From positions 1-18,919 of the forward strand of contig CAMKAP010000012.1 in the NCBI GenBank assembly GCA_946410505.1: DNA of 18,919 nucleotides, written 5' to 3'. Source of the stretch: an uncultured Clostridia bacterium (GTDB lineage Bacteria; Bacillota_A; Clostridia; Oscillospirales; Oscillospiraceae). Below are positions 1,041 to 18,637 of this stretch, one piece after another. Below the pieces are notes generated by a model. It had not been told where the DNA came from, ran no database searches, and worked only from the letters and a program-made list of their open reading frames with translations. How positions within the stretch are numbered: position 1 is the first letter of the stretch; each line of letters starts with the position of its first letter. The position numbers and the translations under genes are program-made.

Positions 1041-1088
1041 GCCTCTCTCCCCTTTTCTCGCAGCTTCGGCTGCAGCGATATTATATAG

Positions 1089-1117: not shown

Positions 1118-1142
1118 TACCGGGCGATACCGACGCCTTCCC

Positions 1143-2201: not shown

Positions 2202-2230
2202 TGGCAGCGGCCTCAACAATAAGAATTCCC

Positions 2231-3235: not shown

Positions 3236-3267
3236 CCGGCTTCTCCTTCGCTCCTTGGTGATAAGTT

Positions 3268-3296
3268 ATTTTACCATTCTTTTTGCCGGAAAGCAA
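3268..3296 (-). promoter_or_regulatory. Candidate sigma-A promoter for asparaginase/apbE
   Basis: On the minus strand TTGCTT (3296-3291) and TAAAAT (3273-3268) are 17 bp apart, placing the start site about 25-30 bases before the asparaginase ATG. The -35 is weaker than consensus. It sits in the short gap just after the sigK stop codon. Confidence 0.5.
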
Positions 3297-3311
3297 TGCG
3301 GTCCTGCTATT

Positions 3312-3992: not shown

Positions 3993-4134
3993 ATGATCAC
4001 CTCTCACACAGCATATTCCGACACAGCCTTGTACCATGCGCGAAAACAGAGGAACGCAGTACAAAAGCGCCGGACCGCACGGAAAAAGCATACGGCTCAA
4101 TTTCACCTATTGTGCTGCGCCTCGCAGTATAAAT

Positions 4135-4208: not shown

Positions 4209-5432
4209 TCAGAGGCTGACGCCGCCCTTTTCAAAAAAGCGCTGGACCGCCAGCAAACCGGCCGCCTTGTTTTCCAGCCGGTGATTGTAAATGCTTTTTT
4301 CCACCACTGTGATATGGCCGCTGTCCACACCCTCCCGCATTTCACTGAGAAGCCGAGAGAGATAATAGGAGTTTTCAAAGATCCCTCCGTACAGGACGAT
4401 CTTGCCCGGATCTGTGAGATAGATCACGGATTTGAGCGCACTGCCCAGCGCATTGACCGCATTGTCCACCACCGTGGCCACGCCGTTGTCCCCGTTACGC
4501 GCGGCGTTGAGAATGTCATCCACCGTCAAGTTCTCAAGTCCCCGCTCCTGGCAGAGCTTCCAGAGAACAGGTGTGCGTTCCTCCGAGAGCAGGGCCAGCG
4601 CATCTTCACGAATGGCGGAGGGAGAGGCTATGGTCTCCAGGCAGCCGCTCTTGCCGCAGGAGCAGGGCTTTCCGCCCCGCTTGATAACGGGAATATGCCC
4701 GATCTCGGCACACTGCTCCGTAACACCGTGCCAGATACGGTCGTCAATGGAGAGCGCCGCGCCGATGCCGTATTCGCAGCGCAGGAAAAACTGCGAGCCG
4801 CTGGCGCTGTCATCGGAAAGGAACATCTGCGCTGCGAACAGCGCACGCACATTGTTGTCCATCACGCATGGGATGCCGGTCAGGGCTTCCATGCGGTCAC
4901 AAAGTGGATAATTTGCCTGGCTCAGCGATCCGAAGCTGTTGATCAGGCGACGCCGGTCAGAGGAGGTGATGCCGCGAACGGCGAGACCAAGCCCCACAAT
5001 CTTCTCCCGGGAAATACGGTGCTCTTCCGCAAGCTCCAGCAGCCGATCGGCCAGCATGGCCGTTGTGCTGTCTGCGTCCGCATGAGGCTCTATGGAGATC
5101 TCTTCGAAGAAGAGCACCGTCCCGTCCAGCAGCACGGCGGAGACGATCGTCTGCCGCAAATTGATCAGCAGTCCCAGGGCGACGCCTGCGAAGGGATCCA
5201 GCTCCACCATGACTTCCCGCCGCCCGGCGCCCTCACTGGGGAGGACTTTGCCTTCCCGCAGCAGGCCGTCACTCATCATCTCGGCCACGATCTTCGTGAT
5301 AGCGGCAGGTGTGAGCTTGATGGCCTCGGCCAGCCGCTTGCGGGACATGCCGCCTTTTTTATGGAGGATGCGAAGCGCAGCACTGCGGTTATTGCGCTTA
5401 ACGCCCATCATGTTATCCCCTTCAAAGGGCAT
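4209..5432 (-). CDS. ROK-family transcriptional repressor (NagC/XylR type), probable sulfosugar regulator
   Basis: 407 residues. The N-terminus is a winged helix-turn-helix (about residues 15-62, with GGMSRKRLAEAIKLTPAAITKIVAEM). It is followed by an ROK sugar-binding body. The ROK zinc site is intact: EIGHIPV supplies His246, and CSCGKSGCLE supplies Cys257, Cys259 and Cys264. The DxGxT phosphate motif of ROK kinases is absent from the segment LGLLINLRQT, so this is a regulator. A GTG at 5450 is in frame but itself contains the AAAGGAG ribosome site of ATG 5432, which I prefer. It is the last gene of the minus-strand operon, so autoregulation through the dyad at 9785-9805 is likely. The inducer is inferred to be SQ or a pathway intermediate. 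Confidence 0.88.
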   Translation of the reverse strand: MPFEGDNMMGVKRNNRSAALRILHKKGGMSRKRLAEAIKLTPAAITKIVAEMMSDGLLREGKVLPSEGAGRREVMVELDPFAGVALGLLINLRQTIVSAVLLDGTVLFFEEISIEPHADADSTTAMLADRLLELAEEHRISREKIVGLGLAVRGITSSDRRRLINSFGSLSQANYPLCDRMEALTGIPCVMDNNVRALFAAQMFLSDDSASGSQFFLRCEYGIGAALSIDDRIWHGVTEQCAEIGHIPVIKRGGKPCSCGKSGCLETIASPSAIREDALALLSEERTPVLWKLCQERGLENLTVDDILNAARNGDNGVATVVDNAVNALGSALKSVIYLTDPGKIVLYGGIFENSYYLSRLLSEMREGVDSGHITVVEKSIYNHRLENKAAGLLAVQRFFEKGGVSL

Positions 5433-5462
5433 TTCACATTCTCCTTTCACCTTTTGAACAGA

Positions 5463-6380
5463 TCAACCGCGAAGTGGAGCTCCCTCATGATGAATGCGGC
5501 CGCGCAGCAGCAGAATCGCCGCGCCCGCCAGGACCACCAGGATCCCCAGCATTTTCTTCACAGTAAGCTCCTCGTTGAGGAAGAATACGCCGATAAAGCA
5601 GCTCACAACAGGCATCAGCAGCAGGCAAAGCTTTACCACCCAAACCTCATAGCGCTTGAGGTTGCGGTAATAGAAAAAGTAAATCCCCGTCTGGGCCAGG
5701 CCCCCAAGCAGGACAAGCCACCAGAGCTTAACCAGGGTGCCCAGTTCAAAGCTGCCCAGATCCCCTGTCACGGCCGCGGCACTGCCGAACAGGAGCAGCA
5801 CCACGAAATTATTGTAATAGGAGATCATGTCTGCGTCCTCGTGATATTTGTCCTGAGCACGCTTAATGATAAAGGCGTTTGCCGTGACGCACATGGCGCT
5901 TAGGATGAAAAACAGGTCAAAGACGCTTACGCGCATGCTGCTAAAATCGATTCCCAGCACCAGCAGCACACCAAAGAGCATCACAAAGGTCCCGAGCCAG
6001 TCGGAAGCATAGAGCTTCTTCTTATACAGGATCACAGACACCAGGTTCACCATCAGCACGTCCGTCTTCAATAAAGCGGTGCCCGTGCTGAGGCTGCCGC
6101 CTGCATAGCCAAGGTTGGCAAACAGATCCAGCAGAAAGCCGAAAACACCGATCATCAGTAGGATCCGAACAGCCTTTCCCTGATGAAAAAGGCGGGAAAA
6201 ATTACCGTCCAGCAGTAGCTGTGCCGTGAGGAAAATGAGTGCCGAGAGGCGCAGCAGAAAGCCCGCCAGCAGCGCAGAGCCCGTAGCGCCGACCACCACC
6301 TTGCTCACAGCATAGTAGATGGACCAGGCCAGCACCATGCCTCCGATCATCCCCACGGCGCTCCGATTGGCATGCTTCAT
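5463..6380 (-). CDS. EamA/DMT-superfamily membrane transporter, candidate sulfonate exporter
   Basis: 305 residues, about ten hydrophobic segments in two similar halves, the plan of EamA (drug/metabolite transporter) proteins. The second repeat ends with CFIGVFFLNEELTVKKMLGILVVLAGAAILLL, a hallmark of the fold (V-x-FLxE...G..LI..G). Its ATG overlaps the stop of the dehydrogenase gene as ATGA (6377-6380), so it is translationally coupled to the enzyme that would make isethionate. This placement suggests it exports the end product isethionate or another pathway sulfonate; the substrate is inference and cannot be read from an EamA sequence. No signal for a different role is seen. Confidence 0.85.
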   Translation of the reverse strand: MKHANRSAVGMIGGMVLAWSIYYAVSKVVVGATGSALLAGFLLRLSALIFLTAQLLLDGNFSRLFHQGKAVRILLMIGVFGFLLDLFANLGYAGGSLSTGTALLKTDVLMVNLVSVILYKKKLYASDWLGTFVMLFGVLLVLGIDFSSMRVSVFDLFFILSAMCVTANAFIIKRAQDKYHEDADMISYYNNFVVLLLFGSAAAVTGDLGSFELGTLVKLWWLVLLGGLAQTGIYFFYYRNLKRYEVWVVKLCLLLMPVVSCFIGVFFLNEELTVKKMLGILVVLAGAAILLLRGRIHHEGAPLRG

Positions 6381-7477
6381 CGCAGCGCTTCAAACATGCT
6401 CCGCAGAGCCGCCTCGTCGAGCTTCACCGGGTTATTGTTCATCAGCGGATGCGCTGCGCAGTCCCGGCAGAGCTTATCCATGTCAACGTCGCCCAGGTCC
6501 GCAAGTCTGCTTCTCAGCCCGGCCATCTCTTTGAAGGCGCGGATGCGCGCGGCAAGCTCATCCGTATCCTTGAGGCCGACAGCGCGGCAGAGGTACTCCA
6601 GCCGCTCGTCGGCATTGATCTTCACCAGGCTGTCCAGTGTGAAGGCACAGGCCTCCCCGTGGGGCAGATGATAATCTTCCGAAAGCGGATAGCTGCAGGC
6701 GTGGCTGGCGGCGGTCTTGGGAAGCGCGAAGCTCAGACCGCCGAGCAGCGCGGCCAGCGCCATGTTGCTCCTGGCCTCCAGATCGTCACCGTGACGGTAG
6801 GCCGTCTCCAGGTTCTCAAGAATCAGCCTGACAGCCTGGATCGCTGTAAGATCCGGGATCGGCTGATGGTTTTTGCTCCAGTAGCCCTCCAGCGCGTGGG
6901 CCATGGCATCAAGGCCGGTGCACATGGTGGTGCGGGGCGGAACTCCCACGCTCATCAGCGGGTCCACAATGGCGGCGGTGGGCATGAAGGCGGGGTTATT
7001 GATGGTTTTCTTCTCCTTGCCGTGGCTCACGACAGAGACCTGCGTCACCTCGCTGCCGGTGCCGGCTGTGGTGGGCACCGCCACGATCAGCAGCCGGTTC
7101 TTTGCGTCAAAAGCCCGACGCCCTTCATAGTAATCAAGGGCCTCCCCTTCGTTGGGAGCGACCGCGGCGGCAAATTTGGCGGTGTCCAGAGAACTCCCAC
7201 CGCCGATACCGATCACGGCCTGCGCCTTCGTCTCCCGACAGAGGCGCACTGTCTCTTCGATGCCGGAGAGCTGCGGATTCTGCTCCACCTGAGAGAAGAC
7301 CGCGACGAAGCGCTTGTCCGCCTCCGTCATGGCCTGCGCCTGCGCCGCGAAGTGCCGCCCGCACACGAGCACCGCGCGTTCAACGCCCAGTTCCTCCAGA
7401 ATGGAAGAGAGCGCCGCGTATTTGCCCTCGCCGAACCAGATCTTGACCGGCTGGGCATATATAAACTCATTTGCCAT
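6377..7477 (-). CDS. sqwF: Iron-containing (group III) alcohol dehydrogenase, proposed sulfoacetaldehyde reductase
   Basis: 366 residues from ATG 7477, which has GAGG nine bases upstream (a TTG 15 bases earlier is in frame but lacks support). Nucleotide binding is shown by GIGGGSSLDTAK (about 90-101) and PTTAGTGSEVT (135-145). The metal ligands of the family are all present: Asp190 and His194 (GLDAMAHALEGY), His259 (ASHACSYP) and His273 (LPHGEA). In the sulfo-TK pathway this enzyme would reduce sulfoacetaldehyde to isethionate with NADH, recycling cofactor; Fe-ADHs are known to do this in Bilophila (SarD) and Bifidobacterium (TauF). The family call is firm; the substrate is inferred from neighbours, and the symbol is from memory of the Clostridium pathway. 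It overlaps the isomerase gene by 11 bases. Confidence 0.83.
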   Translation of the reverse strand: MANEFIYAQPVKIWFGEGKYAALSSILEELGVERAVLVCGRHFAAQAQAMTEADKRFVAVFSQVEQNPQLSGIEETVRLCRETKAQAVIGIGGGSSLDTAKFAAAVAPNEGEALDYYEGRRAFDAKNRLLIVAVPTTAGTGSEVTQVSVVSHGKEKKTINNPAFMPTAAIVDPLMSVGVPPRTTMCTGLDAMAHALEGYWSKNHQPIPDLTAIQAVRLILENLETAYRHGDDLEARSNMALAALLGGLSFALPKTAASHACSYPLSEDYHLPHGEACAFTLDSLVKINADERLEYLCRAVGLKDTDELAARIRAFKEMAGLRSRLADLGDVDMDKLCRDCAAHPLMNNNPVKLDEAALRSMFEALR

Positions 7478-7943
7478 AGATGCTGTCCTCAATGGCAGAG
7501 ACCTGAACGGCGAACTTGTGCATATTGGCAGCGCGCCAGTCCTCCAGATCCTGGCACCACTCGGTGGCCAGGAAGGTCTTGGTCATCTCCACGGCCATCT
7601 CGGGGCCGACGATCCAGCCGCCCATGCAGAGGATGTTGGCGTTATTGATGGCGCGGGCCATCTTGGCGGAATACACTCCCTCGCAGGCTACGGCGTAAAC
7701 ACCCTTAAATTTGTTGGAAACCACACACATACCGGCGCCTGTGCCGCAAATCAGGACGGCACGGTCATATTCGCCCTTCTGCACCAGAGGAGCTACGGTG
7801 TTTGCCACTTCATAATAGGGATGCACATGCTCCAGATCCACAGTGCCCAGATCGTCAAACTCGACGCCCGCATCCTGCAGGTAAGCCTTGATGGCCTCTT
7901 TGGCGGAAAAACCGGATTTATCGCTGCCGATGGCAATTTTCAT
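7467..7943 (-). CDS. sqwI: RpiB/LacAB-family isomerase, proposed 4-deoxy-4-sulfoerythrose isomerase
   Basis: 158 residues with the RpiB/LacAB fold: N-terminal IGSDKSGF, the catalytic Cys66 in LICGTGAGM, and AINNANILCMGG. Compared by eye with E. coli RpiB, several substrate residues differ. The His of SDHxG is Lys9, the ring-opening His (RQHND in E. coli) is Ile99, and the C-terminal RHxxR that binds phosphate reads NMHKF (140-144). The Cys base that moves the proton is kept. This fits an aldose-ketose isomerase acting on an open-chain, non-phosphorylated sugar, such as 4-deoxy-4-sulfoerythrose, converting it to the ketose that transketolase cleaves again. A housekeeping ribose-5-phosphate isomerase is therefore unlikely. 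GAGGAGA ribosome site; same operon as the transketolase halves. Confidence 0.82.
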   Translation of the reverse strand: MKIAIGSDKSGFSAKEAIKAYLQDAGVEFDDLGTVDLEHVHPYYEVANTVAPLVQKGEYDRAVLICGTGAGMCVVSNKFKGVYAVACEGVYSAKMARAINNANILCMGGWIVGPEMAVEMTKTFLATEWCQDLEDWRAANMHKFAVQVSAIEDSIYGK

Positions 7944-7964
7944 GGGAATCTCCTCTCATATGAC

Positions 7965-7984
7965 GGGCGGCCCAAAGGCCGCCC
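7965..7984 (-). promoter_or_regulatory. Intercistronic GC hairpin between transketolase and isomerase genes
   Basis: A perfect 8-bp stem, GGGCGGCC with GGCCGCCC around a 4-base loop, occupies the 66-base gap between the C-terminal transketolase gene and the isomerase gene. On the minus strand it has no U tract, so it is more likely an mRNA-stability or processing element than a terminator. Read on the plus strand it is followed by CTGTTTTGTATT and could stop antisense transcription. Confidence 0.5.
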
Positions 7985-8009
7985 CTGTTTTGTATTCAGA
8001 TTGTCGGTT

Positions 8010-8933
8010 TTACTTCAGGCTGACAGCCTTTTTCGCCTGCTCCACGATGTTCTCCACCGTGAGGCCCATGACCTGGCGCAGATAGGGCATCTTGCCCACT
8101 TCGCCGAAGCGGTCGGGCACGCCCACGGCGACGGCGGGGATCTTCTCCTCAGCCAGCGCCTCAAGCACGGCGGAGTGCAGGCCGCCGATGACGTTGTGAT
8201 TTTCCACGGTCAGAACGGCGCCGGTCTTCCTGGCGGAGGCAATGACGGTCTCCCGGTCGATAGGCTTGATGGTGTGGACGTTAATGACCTCGGCGCTGAT
8301 GCCCTGCTCCTTGAGAAGCTCGGAAGCGTCGAGCACATCCTTCGTCATCATGCCGGAGACAAAGATCGAAAGATCGCTGCCCTCTTTGAGCAGGTCCGCC
8401 TTGAAAAGGTCGAACTTGTAATCCTCCGGGAAGATGACCGGCTGGACCTTGCGGAACAGGCGCATGTACACGCAGCCCTTGTAGGCGTCCAGAACAGGCA
8501 TCGCGGCGCGAAGCTGCACCTCGTCCACCGGCTCAAAAATCACCATGCCGGGGATGGAACGGAGAACGCCGATGTCCTCCATGCTCATGTGGGTGCCGCC
8601 GTTGAGCTCGGCAGAGATCCCGGGGTCGGTGCCGACGACCTTGACGTTCTGCTTGGCATAGACGATGGAGATCGCGATCTGATCGCAGATGCGGCGGGTA
8701 GCAAAGGGCGTGAAGCTCTCGATCCAGGGCCGATACCCGTAGCTGGAGAGGCCCGCGGCGATGGAGGCCATGTTCGCCTCGGCCACACCGCAGTCAAACA
8801 TCTGTCCGGGGAAACGCTCGTAAAGGTTTCTGGTGCCGCTGGCCTTGGAAAGGTCCGCATCCAGGACCACAACGTGCTTGTCCTTCTCCATCATTTCCGC
8901 CAGGCACTGGGCGTAAACAGCTCTCATTTCCAT
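8010..8933 (-). CDS. sqwH: Transketolase C-terminal subunit (Pyr and C-terminal domains), proposed 6-deoxy-6-sulfofructose transketolase subunit
   Basis: 307 residues forming the second half of a split transketolase. The pyrimidine-binding domain carries FDCGVAEANMASIAAGL, with Glu52 the family's TPP-activating acid. The FTPFATRRICDQI stretch and the LNGGTHMSMEDIGVLRSIPG region are as in transketolase and DXS-like proteins. The C-terminal transketolase domain starts near residue 185 and includes VENHNVIGGLHSAVLEALAE. In sulfo-TK the enzyme moves two-carbon units from 6-deoxy-6-sulfofructose, then from 4-deoxy-4-sulfoerythrulose, to glyceraldehyde-3-phosphate, giving xylulose-5-phosphate twice and releasing sulfoacetaldehyde. 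It starts 3 bases after the N-terminal subunit stop, with GGGGAGG ahead. The role comes from context; which subunit bears which letter is from memory. Confidence 0.85.
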   Translation of the reverse strand: MEMRAVYAQCLAEMMEKDKHVVVLDADLSKASGTRNLYERFPGQMFDCGVAEANMASIAAGLSSYGYRPWIESFTPFATRRICDQIAISIVYAKQNVKVVGTDPGISAELNGGTHMSMEDIGVLRSIPGMVIFEPVDEVQLRAAMPVLDAYKGCVYMRLFRKVQPVIFPEDYKFDLFKADLLKEGSDLSIFVSGMMTKDVLDASELLKEQGISAEVINVHTIKPIDRETVIASARKTGAVLTVENHNVIGGLHSAVLEALAEEKIPAVAVGVPDRFGEVGKMPYLRQVMGLTVENIVEQAKKAVSLK

Positions 8934-8936
8934 GTT

Positions 8937-9764
8937 TTATGCCTCCCCTCTGATCTCTGCGATAGCAGCCTTGGCCTGCTCCTCGTTGACGTTGCAATTG
9001 TGGTTGCCCGGTCCAAGGTCCTCGATCCACTTGACACCGCAGCCTTTCTTGGTGTTGAGAATGACCATGGTGGGCTTCTCGCTGCCGCGGCCGAGCTTGG
9101 CGTGCTTCACAGCCTCCTGCACCTGCTCCACGTCATTGCCGTCTTCCACATCGATGACGTTCCAGCCGAAAGCGGCCCACTTCTCGGCCAGAGGCGCAAT
9201 GCCGTTGACCTGTTCCACGGTGCCGTCGATCTGGAGCTTGTTGTAATCGGTAAAGGCGATCAGGTTATCCAGCTTCTTCGCGGCAGCAAACATGGCCGCC
9301 TCCCAGATCTGGCCCTCCTGGCTCTCGCCGTCGCCGATAATGGTGTAGATGGTGGCACCGTCGCCCTCCAGCTTGCTGCCCAGCGCAACGCCCACAGCGC
9401 AGGAGAAGCCCTGTCCCAGGGAGCCGGTGGTCATGTCGATGCCGGTGGTGAGGTTCATGTCGCAGTGGCTGGGCAGATGGGTGCCGCCCTGGTTGAGGGT
9501 GAGCAGCTCTTTCTTGTCAAAGTAGCCGCGATTTGCCAGCGTCGCGTAGACCGCGGGGCCGGCATGCCCCTTGGAGCAGACCAGGCGATCCCTTCCGGCC
9601 ATCTTGGGATTGGCCGGGTCAATGTTCATCTCTTCAAAATAGAGTACCGCCAGCACTTCCACCAGGGACAGGCAGCCGCCGATATGCCCCACGCCAAGAT
9701 GACCGATGCAGGTCATGATGTCGCAGCGAATATCCTTGCAGATCTCTCTGATATCGTGATCCAA
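8937..9764 (-). CDS. sqwG: Transketolase N-terminal TPP-binding subunit, proposed 6-deoxy-6-sulfofructose transketolase subunit
   Basis: 275 residues, the first half of a split transketolase. It has GVGHIGG (24-30; GHPGG in most relatives), the substrate His region SKGHAGPAVYATLA, GSLGQGFSCAVGVAL, and the TPP/metal motif beginning GDGESQEG (144-151) and ending at Asn175 in FTDYNKLQ, the usual GDG-about 30-N spacing. The start is TTG at 9764: GGGAGG lies nine bases upstream and no ATG comes before residue 17. It is first in the minus-strand operon, right after the divergent control region. Split transketolases also occur in the non-oxidative pentose phosphate pathway and in apulose-4-phosphate cleavage; the sulfosugar role is assigned from the adjacent isomerases and GH31 sulfoquinovosidase. 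Confidence 0.85.
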   Translation of the reverse strand: MDHDIREICKDIRCDIMTCIGHLGVGHIGGCLSLVEVLAVLYFEEMNIDPANPKMAGRDRLVCSKGHAGPAVYATLANRGYFDKKELLTLNQGGTHLPSHCDMNLTTGIDMTTGSLGQGFSCAVGVALGSKLEGDGATIYTIIGDGESQEGQIWEAAMFAAAKKLDNLIAFTDYNKLQIDGTVEQVNGIAPLAEKWAAFGWNVIDVEDGNDVEQVQEAVKHAKLGRGSEKPTMVILNTKKGCGVKWIEDLGPGNHNCNVNEEQAKAAIAEIRGEA

Positions 9765-9784
9765 TTTACGTTTCCTCCCGTAAT

Positions 9785-9805
9785 TTAATTAAATGGTCTA
9801 ACTAA
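9785..9805. promoter_or_regulatory. 21-bp dyad, proposed ROK repressor operator O1
   Basis: TTAATTAA, five bases, then CTAACTAA form an imperfect inverted repeat. It overlaps the predicted start site of the minus-strand operon, an ideal repressor position. It resembles the dyad at 14114-14134 and the AACTAA-type half-sites of XylR-class ROK repressors. Assignment to the ROK protein of this locus is inference. Confidence 0.6.
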
Positions 9806-9809
9806 ACAC

Positions 9810-9838
9810 AGTTTAACGCTGTCCACGGCGCTTGTCAA
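9810..9838 (-). promoter_or_regulatory. Sigma-A promoter of the minus-strand sulfo-TK operon
   Basis: On the minus strand, a perfect TTGACA (9838-9833) and TAAACT (9815-9810) are exactly 17 bp apart, with the start site expected near 9803. The leader to the TTG start codon is about 40 bases and contains the proposed operator. Confidence 0.75.
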
Positions 9839-9852
9839 TATGCATATTGACA
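9833..9852. repeat. Perfect 20-bp palindrome joining the two divergent -35 boxes
   Basis: TGTCAATATGCATATTGACA reads the same on both strands. Each end is the -35 TTGACA of one of the two divergent promoters, so the -35 boxes lie back to back with 8 bases between them. Both promoters cannot easily be occupied at once, and the element could also be a regulator site. Confidence 0.8.
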
Positions 9853-9875
9853 GATTGCGCAGGGGAGGCTATGAT
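9847..9875 (+). promoter_or_regulatory. Sigma-A promoter of the sqvD-DUF624-GH31 operon
   Basis: Perfect TTGACA (9847-9852), 17-bp spacer, TATGAT (9870-9875), giving a start near 9882 and a leader of about 36 bases before the sqvD ATG, which has a GGGAGG ribosome site. It diverges from the minus-operon promoter. Confidence 0.75.
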
Positions 9876-9878
9876 TGT

Positions 9879-9892
9879 TTCCAGCGTTTACT
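9879..9892 (-). promoter_or_regulatory. Weak catabolite-response-like (cre) sequence
   Basis: On the minus strand AGTAAACGCTGGAA keeps 8 of the 10 fixed positions of the CcpA cre pattern TGnAAnCGnWnnCA, with mismatches at the first T and the penultimate C. It lies over the predicted start of the plus operon, where CcpA would repress. Low confidence. Confidence 0.2.
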
Positions 9893-9917
9893 AATTATTC
9901 TATGGGAGGTTTATTTT

Positions 9918-11264
9918 ATGACCGGCAAAGCCTTTTCCCCTGTCTATATTCCCGTGGGAGTACCCACTTTTCATCTTGAGAGTGCGCAGGATCAGTTCGA
10001 GCGGAGCATAAAGCTTCTCAAGAGTGTGGATGAACGCTTTATCTGCCCCGCTGAGATGCTGCTCTCGCTCGACAAGCTCCGCGCTTATCTGGATGGGCTT
10101 GCGCCCAGTCTGATCGTTTTTCAGAACCTGACCTTTGCAAACGCGGCCTACATGTCTGAGGTGCTGCGCCGTTTTGACTGTCCGGTACTGCTCTGGACGC
10201 TGCGTGAGCCTGTCATTGACGGAGGCCGCCTCCGCCTCAACTCCCTGACCGGGGCCTACTCCGCCGCCAATGCTCTCCGGGCCTTTGACTATCGCCCCTT
10301 CTCCTACGTCTTCGGCGCGCCAGAAGAGGAAGAAGTGATTCGCACCGTCCGCGCGAGCACCGCTGCAGCCCGCGTAAAGCACGCCATGCGGCAGCTTAGG
10401 ATTTCTGCCGTGGGCCATACGCCCCAGGGCTTCGGCTTCGGCCGCGCGCTGGACAGCGAACTGATGAGCGTCTTCGGTGTGGAGCTGGAGGCCATTGAGG
10501 CCAGAGAGCTCATCGACATGGCCAAGGGCTATACCGATGAGGAGTGCGCAGCCTATCTGGAGAAGACCGCCTGCATGACCTGCGGGCTGGACAAAACGCC
10601 CGAGCAAAACCGCCTGGATCACGCAAGGCTTTATAAGGCCTATACGGAATACGTCCGCAGCCACGGCATCGGCGCTCTCGCCTCCCGCTGCTGGCCGGAT
10701 TTCTTCACGGCCTTCGGCACCCCTGTGTGCACAGTGTTGAGTCTTTTGAATGACGACGGTATCGCCGCCGCCTGCGAGGCGGACATCTACGGGGCCCTGT
10801 CCATGTGGATCGGCATGCAGCTTTCCGGTGAGCCTGTTTTCTTCGGCGACCCTGTCTCCCTGGACGAGGGAGAGAACACCATCACCTTCTGGCACTGCGG
10901 TGCCGCCGCCTGCCAGCTGGCCCGGAAAGATACCGGCGCCGAGATCGGCGTGCACCCCAACCGCAAGATCGGCCCGGCCATGAACTTCGGCTGCGAGGCT
11001 TTCCCGGAGGCCACCGTTTTCCGCATCGGCCGGGAGCCGGACGGCAGCTTCCGCTTCTTCCTCACCGAAGGCGAGGCGCTGAACAAGCCCCGGCAGTTCA
11101 TCGGTACCTCCATCGTGGTAAAAACCGACACCAACAGCCGCAGCGTGGTGGAGCAGAGCGTGCTGGACGGTTTTGAGCCCCATTTCGTGGTTATGAAGGG
11201 CCGTCACGCCGAGACGCTGGAGGCCATGGCGGACATGTTCGGTTTTGAGGTCTGCAGATATTAA
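9918..11264 (+). CDS. sqvD: FucI/AraA-like ketol isomerase, proposed sulfoquinovose isomerase
   Basis: 448 residues from ATG 9918, which has GGGAGG eight bases before it; the frame is open upstream to 9840 but nothing supports an earlier start. It resembles the fucose/arabinose isomerase superfamily, with an N-terminal Rossmann-like half (SLIVFQNLTFANAAYMSEVL, CPVLLWTLREP) and a C-terminal half containing CEADIYGALSMWIGMQLSGEPVFFGDP and FWHCGAAA. Glu287, Asp311 and His326 are candidates for the metal and proton-transfer site of this family. In sulfo-TK and sulfo-SFT loci a protein of this type (SqvD/SftI) converts SQ to 6-deoxy-6-sulfofructose. It heads the plus operon with the GH31 enzyme that releases SQ, supporting that role. 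The exact substrate is inferred from context. Confidence 0.8.
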   Translation: MTGKAFSPVYIPVGVPTFHLESAQDQFERSIKLLKSVDERFICPAEMLLSLDKLRAYLDGLAPSLIVFQNLTFANAAYMSEVLRRFDCPVLLWTLREPVIDGGRLRLNSLTGAYSAANALRAFDYRPFSYVFGAPEEEEVIRTVRASTAAARVKHAMRQLRISAVGHTPQGFGFGRALDSELMSVFGVELEAIEARELIDMAKGYTDEECAAYLEKTACMTCGLDKTPEQNRLDHARLYKAYTEYVRSHGIGALASRCWPDFFTAFGTPVCTVLSLLNDDGIAAACEADIYGALSMWIGMQLSGEPVFFGDPVSLDEGENTITFWHCGAAACQLARKDTGAEIGVHPNRKIGPAMNFGCEAFPEATVFRIGREPDGSFRFFLTEGEALNKPRQFIGTSIVVKTDTNSRSVVEQSVLDGFEPHFVVMKGRHAETLEAMADMFGFEVCRY

Positions 11265-11301
11265 ATCGCTTCTCTGTTCGCATGAACGGAAAGGTTGAGG
11301 T

Positions 11302-11925
11302 ATGAAAGAATCCAGGTTCAAACCCGCCCTTAGCGCTGTAATCGACATCCTATACGCCGGCATCCTCTGGCTGATCTTCTCGCTGCCCGTGCTTACGCTG
11401 GGGCCGGCCACCACGGCGCTTTACTACGCTGTGGTCAAGTGCATCCGCCATGAACGTGGCCGGCTGTCCCGGGTGTTTCTGTCCGGCTTCCGCCAGAACT
11501 TCCGACAGAGCTTTCTGATGTGGCTTCTGTACATGGCCGTTATGGGCCTTGCCGCGCTGGATTTCTACGCCTATCGGCATATGGGCCTCCGGGCGGGGAT
11601 ACCGCTTTCCGCTTTCAGCGGGCTGCTCGCGCTCCCGGCGCTGCTCACTTTTCCCTGGATGTTTGCTTATATCTCGCGTTTTTCCAATTCTCTGGGCGGA
11701 AGTCTCAAATTTATATGCTTTCTGGCGGCACGGTATCTGGGCAGGACGCTTCTGCTGGTCGGTGAGCTGCTGCTGTTTCTGGCCATTGCCTGGCTGCTGC
11801 CCCAGATTCTGCCCCTGATCCCCGGTGTCTTTGCTCTGCTGATGTCGCTGGCGATTGAGCCCGTGTTCCGGTTATATACGGCAGATCAGAAGAGCGAGAA
11901 CGGAGATTCCTGGTATAATGAGTAA
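11302..11925 (+). CDS. DUF624/YesL-family membrane protein
   Basis: 207 residues with about five or six hydrophobic segments and the DUF624 (YesL) pattern: N-terminal LWLIFSLPVLTLGPATTALYYAVVKCIR, then SFLMWLLYMAVMGLAALDFY and a conserved FPWMFAYISRF region. The function of the family is unknown. YesL-type proteins commonly sit next to carbohydrate ABC transporter or glycosidase genes in Firmicutes, and this one lies between the SQ isomerase and the GH31 glycosidase, 37 bases after the former and 18 before the latter. It may assist sulfosugar uptake or a sensor system, but nothing in the sequence shows how. AAAGG and GAGG both lie just before the ATG. Confidence 0.8.
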   Translation: MKESRFKPALSAVIDILYAGILWLIFSLPVLTLGPATTALYYAVVKCIRHERGRLSRVFLSGFRQNFRQSFLMWLLYMAVMGLAALDFYAYRHMGLRAGIPLSAFSGLLALPALLTFPWMFAYISRFSNSLGGSLKFICFLAARYLGRTLLLVGELLLFLAIAWLLPQILPLIPGVFALLMSLAIEPVFRLYTADQKSENGDSWYNE

Positions 11926-11943
11926 AACAACGAGGAGACCATA

Positions 11944-13941
11944 ATGTTTGAAATCCGAACTGAAGGAGCAAATGGTGTCAGCTTATGGCTGGACGGTCGG
12001 CTTCTGCTGCGCCACTCCCCCGACGCTCCCGCGTTTTTCTGCGGCAGGGGCCGGGACAACATCCGGATGTTTCGCGGAAACTTTGAAATCCGCGACCGGG
12101 TGAATGAGCGCCTCGCTCCGCGTCTGGCAAACGCCGAAGGCTGCACGCTGCGCTTTGTACACCCGGATCTTGCCGGGGATGTCTGGTTAAGCGCCGAGGA
12201 GCGGGTGGGCCTCGTCTATCTCACTCTGCACTGTGATGACCCCAGCGTAAATCGCCTTTGGATCCGTCTTTCGGCCAAGCCCGAGGAACACATGGTCGGC
12301 GGCGGCGAGCAGTATTCCGCGCTTGATCTCCGCGGAAAGCTCTGGCCGATCTGGACCCGGGAACAGGGCGTGGGCCGCAACAAGCTCACGGAGGTCACCC
12401 GCCTTGCCGACGCGCTGGACGGCAGCGGCGGTGATTATCACACCACCTTCTTCCCCCAGCCGACTCTGCTCTCCTCCCGGCTGTATTTCCTGCATCTGGA
12501 AAACTACGAATACAGCGAGCTGGATCTGCGAGAGAGCGATTTCCATGAAATCGGCGTCTGGAGCAGCGAAATGCGTCTGGTCCTCAGCGCTGCCGAGAGC
12601 TTCGAGGCGCTGCTGGAAAAGCTGACGGCCCATCTCGGCCGACAGCCGGTCCTCCCCGACTGGGCCATGAAGGGCCTCTGGTTGGGTGTTCAGGGCGGAA
12701 CTGAGCGTGCAGCTGCGTTGGAAAAGCGCTGCAAAGACGGGGGCATGGACGTCTCCGCTGTCTGGATTCAGGACTGGGAGGGGCGGCGCGTCACCTCCTT
12801 CGGCAAGCGTCTGCAGTGGGACTGGCGCTGGAACCGGGAACTGTACCCGGATCTGGACAAGGTGATCGCCCGGGACCGGGACACCGCCTGGATGGGCTAT
12901 ATCAATCCCTATCTTGTTGAGGGGGGCGTTCTCTTTGGCGAGGCCAGAGAGAAAGGCTATTTCGTAAAGCGCGCAGACGGCAGCGACTATCTCTTCGACT
13001 TTGGCGAATATGACTGCGGTGTAGTAGACCTGACTATGCCGGAAGCCTTTGCCTGGTACAAAAACGTCATCAAACAGAACCTGATCGGGCTTGGCTTTCG
13101 CGGCTGGATGGCCGACTTCGGAGAGTACCTTCCGGCGGACGCCGTCTGTTTCGGCGGCACCGGAAGGCAGATGCACAATGCCTGGCCCATGCTCTGGGCC
13201 AAATGCAATCGGGAAGCTGTGGAAGAAGCGGGCATGCTTGGCGACTGCGTGTTTTTCATGCGTGCGGGCGCAGCGGGAAGCCAGCGTTTTTCGACTCTCA
13301 CCTGGGCAGGTGATCAGTGCGTGGACTGGTCCGAGGACGACGGACTTCCCTCCGTCATCACGGCGGCGCTCAGCCTCGGCTTGAGCGGCTTTGGCCTGCA
13401 CACCTGCGACATCGGCGGCTATACGACGCTCTTCCATCTCAAGCGGGACGAGGAGCTGCTTCTGCGCTGGCTGGAATTTGCCTGCTTTACGCCGGTCATG
13501 CGCACCCATGAGGGGAACCGTCCCGACAGCAACGTGCAGCTGTACGACAGTGACGCGATGATCGCCGCGGCGGCCCGGCTGACCGGGATCCACGACGCGC
13601 TGCTGCCCTATTTGCGCCATTGCGTTGAAGAGAACGCAGCGCGCGGGCTTCCGGTCATGCGGCCGCTGTTTCTGGCCCAGAGCGATGCGCCGCAGGCCTG
13701 GGATCACAGGCAGTACAGCTATCTGCTGGGAAGTGATGTGCTGGTTGCCCCGGTGGTAAAGCCTGGCGAAGAAAGCAGGACGCTATGGCTTCCTGAGGGA
13801 GACTGGGTCCACCTCTGGAGCGGCGAGAAGTTTGGCGGCGGGGATTGCAGCGTTTATTCTCCTATCGGGCAACCGCCGGTTTTCTGGCGGGAGGACTCTC
13901 CCTGGGCGGAGCTGTTCCGTGCAATTTGCCGTAACTATTAA
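11944..13941 (+). CDS. yihQ: GH31 sulfoquinovosidase (YihQ-like)
   Basis: 665 residues, no signal peptide, so cytosolic. Hydrolyses alpha-sulfoquinovosides such as sulfoquinovosyl glycerol to free SQ. The GH31 nucleophile is Asp391 in GWMADFGEYLP and the acid/base is Asp457 in TWAGDQCVDWS. The residues that make E. coli YihQ specific for the sulfonate appear at matching places: Gln276 in WIQDW, Arg289 and Trp292 in TSFGKRLQWDW (E. coli Arg301, Trp304), Tyr493 in DIGGYTTLF (Tyr508) and His522 in RTHEGN. I aligned these by eye against remembered E. coli sequence; the constant offsets (12, then 14-15) support it. Ordinary alpha-glucosidases and xylosidases of GH31 lack the KRxxW feature. Ribosome site GAGGAG six bases ahead of ATG; the operon ends in a terminator right after. 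Confidence 0.93.
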   Translation: MFEIRTEGANGVSLWLDGRLLLRHSPDAPAFFCGRGRDNIRMFRGNFEIRDRVNERLAPRLANAEGCTLRFVHPDLAGDVWLSAEERVGLVYLTLHCDDPSVNRLWIRLSAKPEEHMVGGGEQYSALDLRGKLWPIWTREQGVGRNKLTEVTRLADALDGSGGDYHTTFFPQPTLLSSRLYFLHLENYEYSELDLRESDFHEIGVWSSEMRLVLSAAESFEALLEKLTAHLGRQPVLPDWAMKGLWLGVQGGTERAAALEKRCKDGGMDVSAVWIQDWEGRRVTSFGKRLQWDWRWNRELYPDLDKVIARDRDTAWMGYINPYLVEGGVLFGEAREKGYFVKRADGSDYLFDFGEYDCGVVDLTMPEAFAWYKNVIKQNLIGLGFRGWMADFGEYLPADAVCFGGTGRQMHNAWPMLWAKCNREAVEEAGMLGDCVFFMRAGAAGSQRFSTLTWAGDQCVDWSEDDGLPSVITAALSLGLSGFGLHTCDIGGYTTLFHLKRDEELLLRWLEFACFTPVMRTHEGNRPDSNVQLYDSDAMIAAAARLTGIHDALLPYLRHCVEENAARGLPVMRPLFLAQSDAPQAWDHRQYSYLLGSDVLVAPVVKPGEESRTLWLPEGDWVHLWSGEKFGGGDCSVYSPIGQPPVFWREDSPWAELFRAICRNY

Positions 13942-13953
13942 ACAATTTCAACA

Positions 13954-13988
13954 AATCGGGCAGCATGTTTTTGGCATGCTGCCTGATT
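13954..13988 (+). terminator. Hairpin terminator after the GH31 gene
   Basis: A 14-bp stem with one G-U pair (AATCGGGCAGCATG and CATGCTGCCTGATT) closes a 7-base T-rich loop 12 bases after the stop codon. The following CTTCGTT is only partly U-rich. It separates the enzyme operon from the binding-protein operon, which has its own promoter. Confidence 0.7.
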
Positions 13989-14048
13989 CTTCGTTAAAGT
14001 GCACAGATTTTCCTCTATAAAATCTACGAAAGCACGGGCTGAAATTGC

Positions 14049-14077
14049 TTTACAATTTTGAAATATTTCCCTATAAT
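14049..14077 (+). promoter_or_regulatory. Sigma-A promoter of the ABC transporter operon
   Basis: TTTACA (14049-14054), 17-bp spacer, TATAAT (14072-14077), nearly ideal, with a start near 14084 and a leader of about 63 bases containing the second 21-bp dyad. The gap 13942-14146 holds no gene. Confidence 0.78.
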
Positions 14078-14084
14078 TATTTCA
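14059..14084. repeat. AT-rich inverted repeat bracketing the -10 box
   Basis: TGAAAT (14059-14064) and ATTTCA (14079-14084) flank the -10, and inside the first arm GAAATATTTC (14060-14069) is a perfect 10-bp palindrome. Just upstream AAATTG, five bases, CAATTT (14042-14058) spans the -35. Possible regulator sites; in such AT-rich DNA chance is a real alternative. Confidence 0.35.
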
Positions 14085-14113
14085 GACGCTGCAAGTTATT
14101 TTTTTGTGGCTAA

Positions 14114-14134
14114 TTAATTAAATTTGTTAATCAA
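14114..14134. promoter_or_regulatory. 21-bp dyad, proposed ROK repressor operator O2
   Basis: TTAATTAA, five bases, TTAATCAA: an inverted repeat with one mismatch, the same layout as the dyad at 9785-9805. It lies in the predicted leader, ending right before the AAGGAG ribosome site, where a bound repressor would act as a roadblock. Confidence 0.6.
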
Positions 14135-14146
14135 AGGAGAACGCGT

Positions 14147-15421
14147 ATGAAAAAGGTATTTGCCCTGCTGCTCGTACTGGTAATGGTTTTCGCACTGTTC
14201 CCCGTATCGCAGCCCGCCTACGCCGATGACGAGATCGTCATCAACTTCCCCAGCATCTGGGTCGGCACCGACTCCAAGTCTGAGTACATGAGTAAGCTGA
14301 TCGATGCTTTCAACGCTGAAAACGCCGGTTCTATCAAGGTCGTTGTTGAAGAGCAGACCGACTACCAGGCCTACCGTGACAAGATTCGCACCGTTATCAC
14401 CACCGGCAACGCGCCCGACCTCTGCATTCTGGATACCTCTTATGACATCAAGGCCCTGATGAAATCCGGCAAATTCCTGGACCTCACTCCGTATCTGGAA
14501 GAGGGCTGGGGCGATGACTTCGAAGACGGCGTTTTTGACGCTTGGAGCGTCGACGGCAAGGTCAGCATCCTGCCCTTTGAGGCCGCTGTTTTCACCCCGA
14601 TCTACAACACCAAGATCTTTGAAGAGGCCGGTTGGGACCACTTCCCCGCCACCTATGACGAGTTCTTTAAGATGGCCGATGATGTAAAGGCCGCCGGTTA
14701 CAACGTCATGGGCCAGATGGCCGGTGAGAACGGCTGGTCCTCCATGCTGTGGTACTCCCTGATCGCGGAAGCCATCGGCGGCCAGGACGTCTATGCCGAC
14801 GGTCTGGAGAATCCCGCTTTCGTGCAGGCTGCCGAAATCCTCAAGAAGATGTATGACTACACCTTCGATGGCGCCGTCTCCGCCGGTGCTGCCGACGTGA
14901 ACGGTCACTTTATCGCCCGCGACACTGCTGTCTACCTCAACGGTCCCTGGTGGATCGCCAATCTCTATAAGGAAGACAACGCTGTTGACGGCGTGCTGCT
15001 GGCCGATGACTGCGAAGTCGCCAAGAATCCCGTCTATGAGGGCGGCCTGGGCGATCCCGATGCCGTAGTGACCTGCGTTCAGGCTTTCTTTGCCGCCGCC
15101 AAGCAGGACGATCCTGCCAAGGAAGCCGCCGTGGTCAAGTTCCTGCAGTACATTACCGATCCTGTGAAGGTGAAGGAGCTTTCCCTCAGCTCCGGCTCCA
15201 TGTTCTTCCTGAAGGACACCCAGCCCGACGAGCCCTCTGAGATCGCGCAGAAGGTGTACGACATCTACAACAACCGCAGCTATGCTGTGATCCACGTGCA
15301 GGGTGCTTTCCCGCCCGCCTACATTGCCGAATTCCCCTCCGCGCTTGCCGCTCTCATCAACGATGAGGTCGACGCGCAGGGCTTTGTCGATCAGCTCCAG
15401 GAAGCCATTGATATGGCCTGA
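14147..15421 (+). CDS. Extracellular solute-binding protein of a CUT1 ABC importer
   Basis: 424 residues, family 1 sugar-binding protein type. After the signal peptide the mature part begins with a beta strand (EIVINFPSIW) and shows the family's F...TGNAPDLCILD, SGKFLDLTPYL and LPFEAAVFTPIYNTKIFEEAG segments, and C-terminal FLQYITDPVKVKEL. The likely ligand is SQ or sulfoquinovosyl glycerol, from its place next to the glycosidase and its shared operator; this is inference. The odd point is the signal peptide: it ends SQPAYA-DDE and has no lipobox Cys, so it looks cleaved by signal peptidase I, whereas binding proteins of Gram-positive bacteria are usually lipid-anchored. Strong AAAGGAG ribosome site. 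Confidence 0.88.
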   Translation: MKKVFALLLVLVMVFALFPVSQPAYADDEIVINFPSIWVGTDSKSEYMSKLIDAFNAENAGSIKVVVEEQTDYQAYRDKIRTVITTGNAPDLCILDTSYDIKALMKSGKFLDLTPYLEEGWGDDFEDGVFDAWSVDGKVSILPFEAAVFTPIYNTKIFEEAGWDHFPATYDEFFKMADDVKAAGYNVMGQMAGENGWSSMLWYSLIAEAIGGQDVYADGLENPAFVQAAEILKKMYDYTFDGAVSAGAADVNGHFIARDTAVYLNGPWWIANLYKEDNAVDGVLLADDCEVAKNPVYEGGLGDPDAVVTCVQAFFAAAKQDDPAKEAAVVKFLQYITDPVKVKELSLSSGSMFFLKDTQPDEPSEIAQKVYDIYNNRSYAVIHVQGAFPPAYIAEFPSALAALINDEVDAQGFVDQLQEAIDMA

Positions 15422-15458
15422 GTCTGAGTATCCTACGAACTGAATCGAATAATCCGCT

Positions 15459-15490
15459 GTACAGGCTGCGGCTAACACCGCAGCCTGTAC
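15459..15490 (+). promoter_or_regulatory. Strong intercistronic hairpin after the binding-protein gene
   Basis: A perfect 13-bp stem, GTACAGGCTGCGG and its complement, with a 6-base loop lies between the binding-protein gene and the first permease gene. No U tract follows (CCTTACACC), so it is probably not a full terminator. Such hairpins in sugar ABC operons protect the 3' end of the binding-protein mRNA, giving more binding protein than permease. Confidence 0.65.
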
Positions 15491-15520
15491 CCTTACACCG
15501 TGTAACAAGGAGGCGGTCCT

Positions 15521-16429
15521 TTGAAACCCACACCATCTGACAGAAGAGCGCTTGTCGCTTTCATGGCCCCTGCAATCGCGGTCATGGTGGTTTTCTTTAT
15601 CATTCCCGTTATCTATGTTATCGTTGTCAGCACACTGAAATGGGACGGGATTTCTGCGCCGAATGTTGTTGGCATTGAAAACTTTGTCAAGCTCCTGAAA
15701 AACTCCACCTTCCAGCGCTCTCTGAAAAACAACATCGTCTGGGCCGCCGCGGCCGGATTTATTCAGGTCCCCCTTGCCATGGTGATGGCGATCATCCTCT
15801 CCCGCAAGCCCAGGGGCTGGAAATTCTTCCGGACGGTCTATTTCTTCCCCCAGGTCATTTCCGGTATTGCGCTGGCCACCCTGTGGCGCGCGATCTACAA
15901 CGCTGACCACGGCATGCTCAACGGTCTGCTCAATGCGATCGGTCTCGGCCGTTTTGCAACGGACTGGCTCGGAAATAAGGACACGGCGCTGCCCGCCGTT
16001 CTGATCTACTGGATCTTCTATGTGGGCTATTACATGGTCATTATGATGGCCGACATTACCACCATTGACACCTCCTACTATGAGGCGGCGACCATCGACG
16101 GCGCAACGGATTTCCAGCAGGCCATCTACATCACGATCCCGCTGATCAAGAAGACCTCCCTGCTGACCTGCGTGACGCTGGCAAGCGTCATGGGTCTCAG
16201 GCAGTTCGAGCAGGTCTATATGCTCACCAGCGGAGGCCCGAACCACCGCACCTCCACCATGGTGCTGTACATGTATGAGCGATTGCAAAGTTCAAGCTAC
16301 GGTCTTGCCAGTGCCACAGCCGTCATTTTGATCATCGTTGGCGTGATCTTCATCATTGCCATCCGCGCCCTCTTCAACGGCCGCAGTGAGACCGTCAAGC
16401 CCAAAAAGGCAAGGGGGGCAGTGAAATGA
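15521..16429 (+). CDS. ABC transporter permease, MalF/UgpA type
   Basis: 302 residues with six predicted membrane segments, the first at about residues 11-38. The cytoplasmic EAA loop that docks the ATPase is YEAATIDGATDFQQAIYITIPLI. It begins with TTG at 15521 behind a full AAGGAGG at seven-base spacing; no ATG offers a better start. Its stop overlaps the next permease start (ATGA). Paired with the upstream binding protein and downstream permease it forms the membrane channel of a CUT1 sugar importer, likely for SQ glycosides. Confidence 0.9.
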   Translation: MKPTPSDRRALVAFMAPAIAVMVVFFIIPVIYVIVVSTLKWDGISAPNVVGIENFVKLLKNSTFQRSLKNNIVWAAAAGFIQVPLAMVMAIILSRKPRGWKFFRTVYFFPQVISGIALATLWRAIYNADHGMLNGLLNAIGLGRFATDWLGNKDTALPAVLIYWIFYVGYYMVIMMADITTIDTSYYEAATIDGATDFQQAIYITIPLIKKTSLLTCVTLASVMGLRQFEQVYMLTSGGPNHRTSTMVLYMYERLQSSSYGLASATAVILIIVGVIFIIAIRALFNGRSETVKPKKARGAVK

Positions 16430-17286
16430 GTGAAACCCGTCTTCTTCCCCCGCTTCGCGGAAAAGAGCTTGTCCTCGCAATCCTGCGCTGGACCCTGATC
16501 CTCTTCTTTGCGGTCTATACGCTCTTCCCCCTGCTTTGGCTGCTGTCCTCTTCGCTCAAGACGAATTTTGAGTTTCTGGCGAAGTCCCCCTTCGCGCTGC
16601 CCTCGGTACCGCAGTGGATCAACTACAAAAACGCACTCACGGTCGCGGGTCTCGGCAGGATGCTGCTCAACTCCGTCATCGTCGGCATTTTCGCCACCCT
16701 GGTGAACGTGATCATCGCGAGCATGGGCGCCTACTGTATCTCCCGCTTCCGCTTCCGCGGCCGTGAGAGCATCTACACGCTCTTTACCGCCGGCATTCTG
16801 GTCCCGCTGAGTGCCCTGATGGTCCCTTACTTTGTCATCATCAACAAGCTCGGTCTCTACAACACCTACGGCGGCATGATCCTCCTCTACAGCGCCATCG
16901 GCATCCCCATGTCCACCTTCCTGATTCGCGGGCTGATGGATTCCATCCCCATGGATCTGGAGGAGGCAGCCTATATCGACGGCTGCGGCTTCTACGGGCG
17001 CTTCTTCCACATCATTCTGCCCCTGAGTCGCACAGGCATCGTCACCGCCGCCACCTTCCAGTTTCTCACCTGCTGGAACGAATTCATCTTTGCAAACCTG
17101 ATCGTCTCCTCCGAGAAACTGCGCACCATCCAGGTCGGTATCCGCTATTTCACCAACCAGTTTTCCACCGACTATGTGTCCATGTACGCCGCCATCGTCA
17201 TTTCGATCGTCCCCTCCATCATCGGCTATGTGCTCTTCCAGGAGCAGATCATCGCCGGCATGACCAGCGGCGCGGTCAAGGGCTGA
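16426..17286 (+). CDS. ABC transporter permease, MalG/UgpE type
   Basis: 286 residues, the second permease of the importer. It has an N-terminal membrane segment followed by the periplasm-side SSLKTNFEFLAKSPFALP typical of MalG-like proteins, then five more segments and the EAA loop LEEAAYIDGCGFYGRFFHIILPL. The C-terminus ends QEQIIAGMTSGAVKG, the usual tail of this family. Its ATG overlaps the preceding stop by four bases, so the two permeases are made in equal amount. No ATPase gene follows in this operon; a terminator-like hairpin comes 50 bases later. Confidence 0.9.
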   Translation: MSETRLLPPLRGKELVLAILRWTLILFFAVYTLFPLLWLLSSSLKTNFEFLAKSPFALPSVPQWINYKNALTVAGLGRMLLNSVIVGIFATLVNVIIASMGAYCISRFRFRGRESIYTLFTAGILVPLSALMVPYFVIINKLGLYNTYGGMILLYSAIGIPMSTFLIRGLMDSIPMDLEEAAYIDGCGFYGRFFHIILPLSRTGIVTAATFQFLTCWNEFIFANLIVSSEKLRTIQVGIRYFTNQFSTDYVSMYAAIVISIVPSIIGYVLFQEQIIAGMTSGAVKG

Positions 17287-18624: not shown

Positions 18625-18637
18625 AGGGAGGCGCTCC

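Follow-up and report, generated by a model that had tools for sequence, protein, structure and literature searches.

A predicted transketolase-type sulfoquinovose degradation locus with a probable importer and an altered RpiB-like isomerase in an uncultured Clostridia bacterium

Does contig CAMKAP010000012.1 of an uncultured Clostridia bacterium (assembly GCA_946410505.1) encode a full route from sulfoquinovose (SQ) glycosides to isethionate, and if so, where does that system end? The contig stretch analyzed here, referred to as the window, is 18,919 nucleotides long. The original prediction, made without database searches, placed an apparently complete transketolase-type SQ degradation locus (sulfo-TK), ending in isethionate, at positions 4209 to 13941. 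We consider it highly probable that the locus imports SQ or SQ glycosides and degrades them by the sulfo-TK pathway to isethionate, under control of a ROK-family regulator as a predicted regulon.

Open reading frame (ORF) starts were refined with a codon-model gene caller, and families were checked against Pfam and NCBIfam. The genes fall into the two divergent operons that had been described, and every enzyme originally named is present: the GH31 enzyme with YihQ sulfonate residues, the FucI-like isomerase, the split transketolase, the RpiB-like isomerase and the iron-type alcohol dehydrogenase (Fe-ADH), together with the EamA/DMT permease and the ROK regulator. Among the window proteins scanned, none was a kinase, aldolase or transaldolase, in agreement with the earlier claim. 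The gene coordinates give an overlap of 11 bases between the RpiB-like and Fe-ADH genes and one of 4 bases between the Fe-ADH and EamA genes, and a gap of about 200 bases separates the GH31 gene from that of the solute-binding protein (SBP) of an ATP-binding cassette (ABC) system. The features are as follows.

4209..5432, minus strand: ROK-family regulator with winged helix-turn-helix and ROK domain, proposed repressor of the SQ regulon (Pfam ROK, 127 bits).
5463..6380, minus strand: EamA/DMT permease, proposed isethionate exporter (Pfam EamA; substrate proposed from gene position).
6377..7477, minus strand: Fe-ADH, putative sulfoacetaldehyde reductase, SqwF/TauF-like (closest solved structure 6jko; residue comparison with BkTauF).
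7467..7943, minus strand: RpiB-like isomerase, putative SqwI (Pfam LacAB_rpiB, 145 bits; K9/I99).
8010..8933, minus strand: transketolase C-terminal half, SqwH-like (Pfam Transket_pyr and Transketolase_C).
8937..9764, minus strand: transketolase N-terminal half, SqwG-like (Pfam Transketolase_N, 161 bits; nearest structure 6yak).
9784..9807, minus strand: operator-like 9-3-9 palindrome before the transketolase operon (profile score 14.2 bits).
9918..11264, plus strand: FucI-like putative sulfoquinovose isomerase, SqvD/SftI-like (NCBIfam SftI, 383 bits, under the cut-off; fold model).
11302..11925, plus strand: DUF624/MusI-like membrane protein that may be an importer accessory (Pfam DUF624; 94.5 bits with the NCBIfam MusI family, under its cut-off of 160).
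11944..13941, plus strand: GH31 putative sulfoquinovosidase, YihQ-type (NF007746; YihQ structure 5aed, E 5e-224).
14112..14135, plus strand: operator-like 9-3-9 palindrome before the ABC importer (profile score 35.3 bits).
14147..15421, plus strand: ABC SBP, proposed to bind SQ or SQ glycosides (Pfam SBP_bac_8).
15563..16429, plus strand: ABC permease 1 (Pfam BPD_transp_1, scanned from 15521; start by the codon-model caller).
16426..17286, plus strand: ABC permease 2 (Pfam BPD_transp_1).

From the observed genes, their order, conservation, residues and operator-like site, we infer the catalytic activities, product, transport directions, repression and inducer of the system. The ABC system at 14147-17286 would import SQ or SQ glycosides, the GH31 sulfoquinovosidase would free SQ, and the FucI-like isomerase would convert SQ to 6-deoxy-6-sulfofructose. 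The split transketolase would move two C2 units onto glyceraldehyde-3-phosphate to give two xylulose-5-phosphates, and between the two cleavages the RpiB-like enzyme would turn the aldose 4-deoxy-4-sulfoerythrose into its ketose. Sulfoacetaldehyde would then be reduced to isethionate by the Fe-ADH, and the ROK repressor would act at a palindrome common to the transketolase operon and the importer, thereby controlling both. The predicted pathway from SQ glycoside to isethionate is supported by a matching enzyme with the expected residues for each step and by the same pathway having been published for rumen bacteria (PMC13219744); here and below, published sources are cited from parts of their text.

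In order to examine conservation, we compared the window with the best 80 of 127 loci from a scan with the RpiB-like protein, and all 80 were therefore chosen by similarity to that one protein (individual loci are given by L number). The SQ isomerase, both transketolase halves, the RpiB-like isomerase and the Fe-ADH are adjacent in the same order in 62 of them, and the unbroken run extends to the EamA gene in 54 and to the ROK gene in 42; an EamA permease gene is present in 64. The importer-GH31-DUF624-isomerase order of the window is seen in 11 loci, with a DUF624 gene in 19, and all of these gene-order counts are lower bounds as many of the 80 loci end at contig edges. The best four loci are 93-97% identical in the scan with the RpiB-like protein, and coding differences from L001 and L002 lie mainly at third codon positions. 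Given the recurring five-gene core and this pattern of differences, chance is excluded as the origin of the locus.

The GH31 enzyme scores 873 bits, over a cut-off of 553, with NF007746 (PRK10426, described as alpha-glucosidase), which we take to be the YihQ model, and its best match among solved structures is YihQ itself (5aed, E 5e-224). With numbering matched by hand on the alignment, Q276, R289, W292, Y493, D391 and D457 of the window enzyme align to Q288, R301, W304, Y508, D405 and D472 of YihQ. The YihQ Arg, Trp and Tyr are presumably sulfonate-binding, and D472 presumably the catalytic partner. The catalytic Asp pair and the Arg/Trp/Tyr set of a YihQ-type sulfoquinovosidase are all present in the window enzyme. 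Asp405 of YihQ is named as catalytic (PMC11968277), and the residue names Arg301/Trp304 were not found in the part of the literature searched.

GH31 genes occur in 48 of the 80 related loci, and 40 of these, encoding proteins longer than 85% of the window GH31, could be typed by residues: 21 read R/W/Y and 19 read Q/W/F. The two types differ in their neighbors. An MFS_2 transporter lies no more than two called genes away from none of the 21 R/W/Y-type genes, compared with 13 of the 19 Q/W/F-type genes, whereas an SBP gene lies within that distance of 11 of 21 and 0 of 19, respectively. The L047 enzyme, the sole Q/W/F-type protein searched, matches sulfoquinovosidases at up to 420 bits versus up to 145 bits for YicI, and it is possible that this type has an altered sulfoglycoside specificity. 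Examples of the Q/W/F type are L047:3192-5222 and 18 other loci, as well as L091:1486-3540, which is located elsewhere in its genome than the core, and the genome of L002 contains another GH31 gene elsewhere, adjoining an MFS_2 transporter. Caution is needed where yihQ serves as a survey marker for SQ utilization, as 19 of the 40 typed enzymes lack two of the three residues that we take to bind the sulfonate. Some Candidatus Limivicinus carry two yihQ copies, and several YihQ clades are described (PMC13219744).

The sole NCBIfam match of the FucI-like protein is the sulfoquinovose isomerase SftI. A sequence search of solved structures returned no homolog, the only matches being to serum albumin at E of at least 0.26. 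An AlphaFold2 model of the protein (pLDDT 82.9) was searched with Foldseek, and all 41 matches at E<=1e-3 are arabinose or fucose isomerases. The reference for this work began at 9915 and includes one extra leading residue, such that alignment and model numbers are one above those of the 448-residue protein. Judged by family and modeled fold, the protein fits the SqvD/SftI-type SQ isomerase anticipated for the sulfo-TK pathway.

The nearest structure to the transketolase N half is a split transketolase (6yak). The C half carries, as R4, A31, F74, D103 and R158, the R-A-F-D-R head-group motif given for the sulfo-TK transketolase (PMC11659671, section 22). Over 81 C-half rows, which include the second transketolase pairs of some loci, the F, D and R158 are invariant. 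At position 4, 73 rows have R, 7 have K and one has a gap; at position 31, 73 have A, 4 have C, 3 have S and one has a gap. The window therefore has what appears to be the two-subunit transketolase with R-A-F-D-R of the sulfo-TK pathway, adjoined by a putative SqwI of the RpiB family. Loci L049, L062, L069 and L078 have a second transketolase pair on the opposite strand near the sulfo-TK locus, and L116, L117 and L119 have R-A-F-D-R transketolase pairs with a nearby Fe-ADH 40-41% identical to that of the window and no RpiB gene in the stretch seen.

The RpiB-like protein shares its family and residues D8, C66, T68 and N100 with ribose-5-phosphate isomerase RpiB, but the RpiB histidines are replaced by K9 and I99 in 81 of 81 rows, the window included. 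His99 of EcRpiB and His102 of MtRpiB are furanose ring-opening residues, and EcRpiB H99N has a 26-fold lower kcat and LacB H9A is inactive (PMC3755991). For Leishmania RpiB, H102N loses activity and H11N, at the position of window K9, alters Km and kcat only slightly (PMC4783025); the same source cites an assignment of ring opening in M. tuberculosis to His138, which does not fully agree with PMC3755991. Neither the ring-opening His99 nor the histidine next to Asp8 that characterize a ribose-5-phosphate isomerase is found in the window protein. Loss of the ring-opening histidine would be expected because 4-deoxy-4-sulfoerythrose, without a 4-hydroxyl, should be unable to cyclise. We give roughly even chances to the window isomerase forming a catalytic class of its own within the RpiB superfamily, in which the proton-transfer residues C66/T68 are kept and the histidine pair has become K9/I99 since the substrate cannot cyclise. 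If true, the enzyme would isomerise a sulfotetrose and have little or no activity on ribose-5-phosphate, and the residue pair could be used to recognize sulfo-TK isomerases in any genome. The signature makes the SqwI step directly testable.

Thirty RpiB-family loci from 15 genomes (30 of 36 matches, the other six not having been read) comprise 13 K/I, 15 H/H and 2 E/S copies. The 13 K/I copies are pathway-linked, two more distant ones (48% and 57%) adjoining transketolase genes by coordinates, and 14 of the 15 genomes carry an H/H RpiB alongside a K/I copy. Because 2 of the 30 loci read E/S, histidine loss is not confined to the sulfo-TK pathway. Residues K9/I99 are not discussed in the examined parts of the SqwI literature, a scope that excludes subscription papers such as Liu et al. 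2021.

The closest solved structure to the Fe-ADH is 6jko at 262 bits, with the next at 167 bits. Although deposited as a methanol dehydrogenase, 6JKO is cited in the paper on the B. kashiwanohense sulfoacetaldehyde reductase BkTauF, in which T257A and F265A almost abolish activity and F252A leaves ∼28% (PMC6616044). These positions, F252, T257 and F265, correspond to window F255, T260 and Y268, and D195, H199, F255, T260, H264, Y268 and H278 are found in 70 of 70 rows, the window included. A number of BkTauF homologs have Tyr at 265 and His at metal ligand Q196, the equivalent of window H199 (PMC6616044). By family, nearest structure and residues, the protein is a good candidate for the metal-dependent alcohol dehydrogenase SqwF, and a TauF-like reductase occurs in 72 of the 80 related loci. 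No Fe-ADH is among the called genes of L037 and L039, where a protein resembling a short-chain dehydrogenase fragment, possibly a different reductase, is encoded two genes past the RpiB-like gene. The EamA permease probably exports isethionate, a substrate suggested by gene position; a drug/metabolite permease is the export candidate in Faecalicatena (PMC11659671).

Promoters were scored with a 24-base profile trained on 13 sites upstream of the SBP gene in relatives, with the window excluded. The training sites were chosen with a loose pattern from the isomerase/transketolase side, leaving out 3 of 16 SBP loci whose promoter was unmatched, and therefore the two promoter sides are not fully independent. 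The profile reaches at least 10 bits in the isomerase/transketolase intergenic region of all 45 loci with ROK compared with 0 of 19 without, at least 12 bits in 43 of 45 compared with 0 of 19, and the looser pattern is found there in 32 of 45 compared with 0 of 19. The 19 loci have at least 1.6 kb seen downstream (five further non-ROK loci with less than 1.6 kb were set aside), and as the loci share ancestry, the counts are not independent events. Random 230-base stretches reach at least 10 bits in 26 of 1500 cases, some of which may contain real sites. The looser pattern is found upstream of the SBP gene in 14 of 17 sequences, including the window, and in 10 of 2000 random stretches. The only two window sites of at least 10 bits are 14112-14135 (35.3 bits, the promoter type used in training) and 9784-9807 (14.2 bits). 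Exact inverted repeats counted in the divergent promoter were only a mixture of short motifs.

Because the importer and the transketolase operon share this operator-like site, the system probably does not stop at 13941 but extends to 17286. The originally described locus is real, but it probably closed too early, and the ABC importer at 14147-17286 probably belongs to the system. None of 36 matches of the SBP among solved structures is named as an SQ- or SQ-glycerol-binding protein. The ATPase encoded at 17527 may also serve the SQ importer. The predicted regulon, which ties the importer to the pathway, is a newly added detail.

Several points weigh against reading the window as a sulfo-TK locus. 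The FucI-like protein's 383 bits fall short of the SftI model cut-off of 700. The R-A-F-D-R motif is not diagnostic alone: among 30 transketolase loci taken from 391 class genomes, 13 carry it, and in 9 of these 13 the visible 2.5-3.9 kb contains no RpiB gene. SqwI activity has not been directly measured, and the isomerisation seems to occur spontaneously (PMC9594981). There is no ATPase gene between the importer genes. Absences outside the window were judged from metagenome-assembled genomes of relatives whose completeness is unstated. An SQ-type DUF4867/SftX gene was not found in the window or in L001-L004 (L001 ends inside ROK), and the locus is apparently complete, as originally described, in having an enzyme with expected residues for each step, but not in this gene. 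The SQ-type gene is present in 40 of the 80 related loci, and since SqvB/SftX (DUF4867) is carried by only a majority of clusters (PMC9594981), it is not a defining feature. We rejected DUF4867 copies elsewhere in relatives as the missing SftX. Such genes occur in 5 of 6 relatives' genomes searched, with six matches, and the SQ-operon type is limited to L086, which is the L005 genome's own operon copy. The other five are 38-42% identical to L086. One of this second type, L081:1495-2130, lies between a xylulokinase-like gene and another FucI-like gene by ORF reading, suggesting that DUF4867 serves other ketose pathways.

Could these genes serve a different route? Fucose isomerase, RpiB, transketolase and Fe-ADH are all large families, and given the non-specific motif, an operon for another sugar might be misread as one for a sulfosugar. 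Against this, the GH31 enzyme is far over the NF007746 cut-off, is closest to YihQ and has the sulfonate residues, the isomerase matches only SftI, the reductase is closest to a sulfoacetaldehyde reductase, and an H/H RpiB is present besides the K/I copy in 14 of 15 genomes searched; we regard this alternative as extremely unlikely. Just as improbable is an oxidative variant, described for Acholeplasma (PMC12890257), in which sulfoacetaldehyde goes to sulfoacetate via SqwD and SqwKL with no reduction: no CoA-acylating dehydrogenase or CoA ligase is among the scanned window proteins (genomes were not searched for SqwD/SqwKL), and the TauF-like reductase of 72 of 80 loci keeps the tested residues. 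Marginally more credible, though still very unlikely, is the bifurcated transketolase/transaldolase route of Faecalicatena and Caproiciproducens, yielding C3 sulfonates as well as isethionate. Both examples carry the same kind of sulfo-TK genes (PMC11659671, PMC13219744), and one of 25 relatives' genomes has a transaldolase-family gene, but none was found in the window and the family is absent from the other 24 genomes, compared with its presence in 10 of 14 control genomes.

Under the preferred sulfo-TK reading, two xylulose-5-phosphates remain to be used. Phosphoketolase, found in only 8 of 25 relatives' genomes, was rejected as a general route for them, and no paper on a sedoheptulose-bisphosphate route turned up in a literature search.

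Published work already covers the pathway, the isethionate product and the occurrence of both in rumen Oscillospiraceae, and the predicted regulon and isomerase signature are the additions made here. For rumen Candidatus Limivicinus, a sulfo-TK pathway leading to isethionate was described in 2026, and this organism transcribes it in SQ-fed microcosms (PMC13219744). Isethionate release on SQ is also published for other bacteria (PMC13219744, PMC11659671), including a Caproiciproducens strain (PMC13219744). The cluster of Ca. Limivicinus sp900317375 is family-level kin with the same pathway and expected product as the window, and its ruminant habitat is common to many of the window's relatives (PMC13219744). 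The operator, the SqwI residues and the GH31 R/W/Y versus Q/W/F split were not found in the available part of that paper. Similarly, neither the predicted regulon nor the isomerase signature was found in the part of the literature examined. The window shares equivalents of SqvD, SqwGH, SqwI and SqwF with the sulfo-TK pathway of Clostridium sp. MSTE9 (Liu et al. 2021, via PMC9594981, PMC12890257 and PMC11659671), likened by gene family, and both end at isethionate with a metal-dependent alcohol dehydrogenase, but the window lacks SqvB/DUF4867. With the bifurcated systems it has the transketolase branch in common, and with Faecalicatena also the R-A-F-D-R motif and a drug/metabolite permease (PMC11659671), whereas both Faecalicatena and Caproiciproducens carry transaldolases and none was found in the window. 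The sulfoquinovosidases also differ: Caproiciproducens genomes are without YihQ (PMC13219744) and the Faecalicatena candidate is of the NAD-dependent kind (PMC11659671), in contrast to the YihQ-type GH31 of the window.

Titles of the 80 related loci name Ruminococcaceae, Oscillospiraceae, Clostridiales, Clostridia or Bacillota genomes, many with ruminant-gut names, and the host is probably a rumen bacterium of the Oscillospiraceae. A close SQ isomerase (at least 64% identity) is found in 16 of 300 genomes from the family of L002's genome, one of the 16 being partial. Through the locus, plant sulfolipid would be connected to isethionate, from which sulfite-respiring bacteria in the rumen make sulfide; this connection is already in the literature, so the contribution of the locus is mainly one of breadth. 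Bilophila had been proposed as the sulfide partner; because the nearest relatives suggest a rumen host, a partner of the Mailhella kind appears more likely (judging from PMC13219744).

Over four colinear stretches, DNA identity between the window and L002 is 83-89%. L002 is without window 11265-17022 (DUF624, GH31, SBP, permease 1 and most of permease 2), although the flanks match and the pathway core and the end of permease 2 are retained. As other relatives, including the genome of L003 (L087, L105), retain genes of this block in the window's order, the gap is most simply a deletion, though it is possibly an assembly fault.

Outside the system, window 3-4106 contains TatC (by reading), a TatA-like gene, ApbE, asparaginase and a sigma-70-type factor, with no obvious SQ link. 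At the other end, 17527-18919 contains the ABC ATPase followed by a permease-like frame that runs off the contig, an arrangement resembling the start of a second transporter operon.

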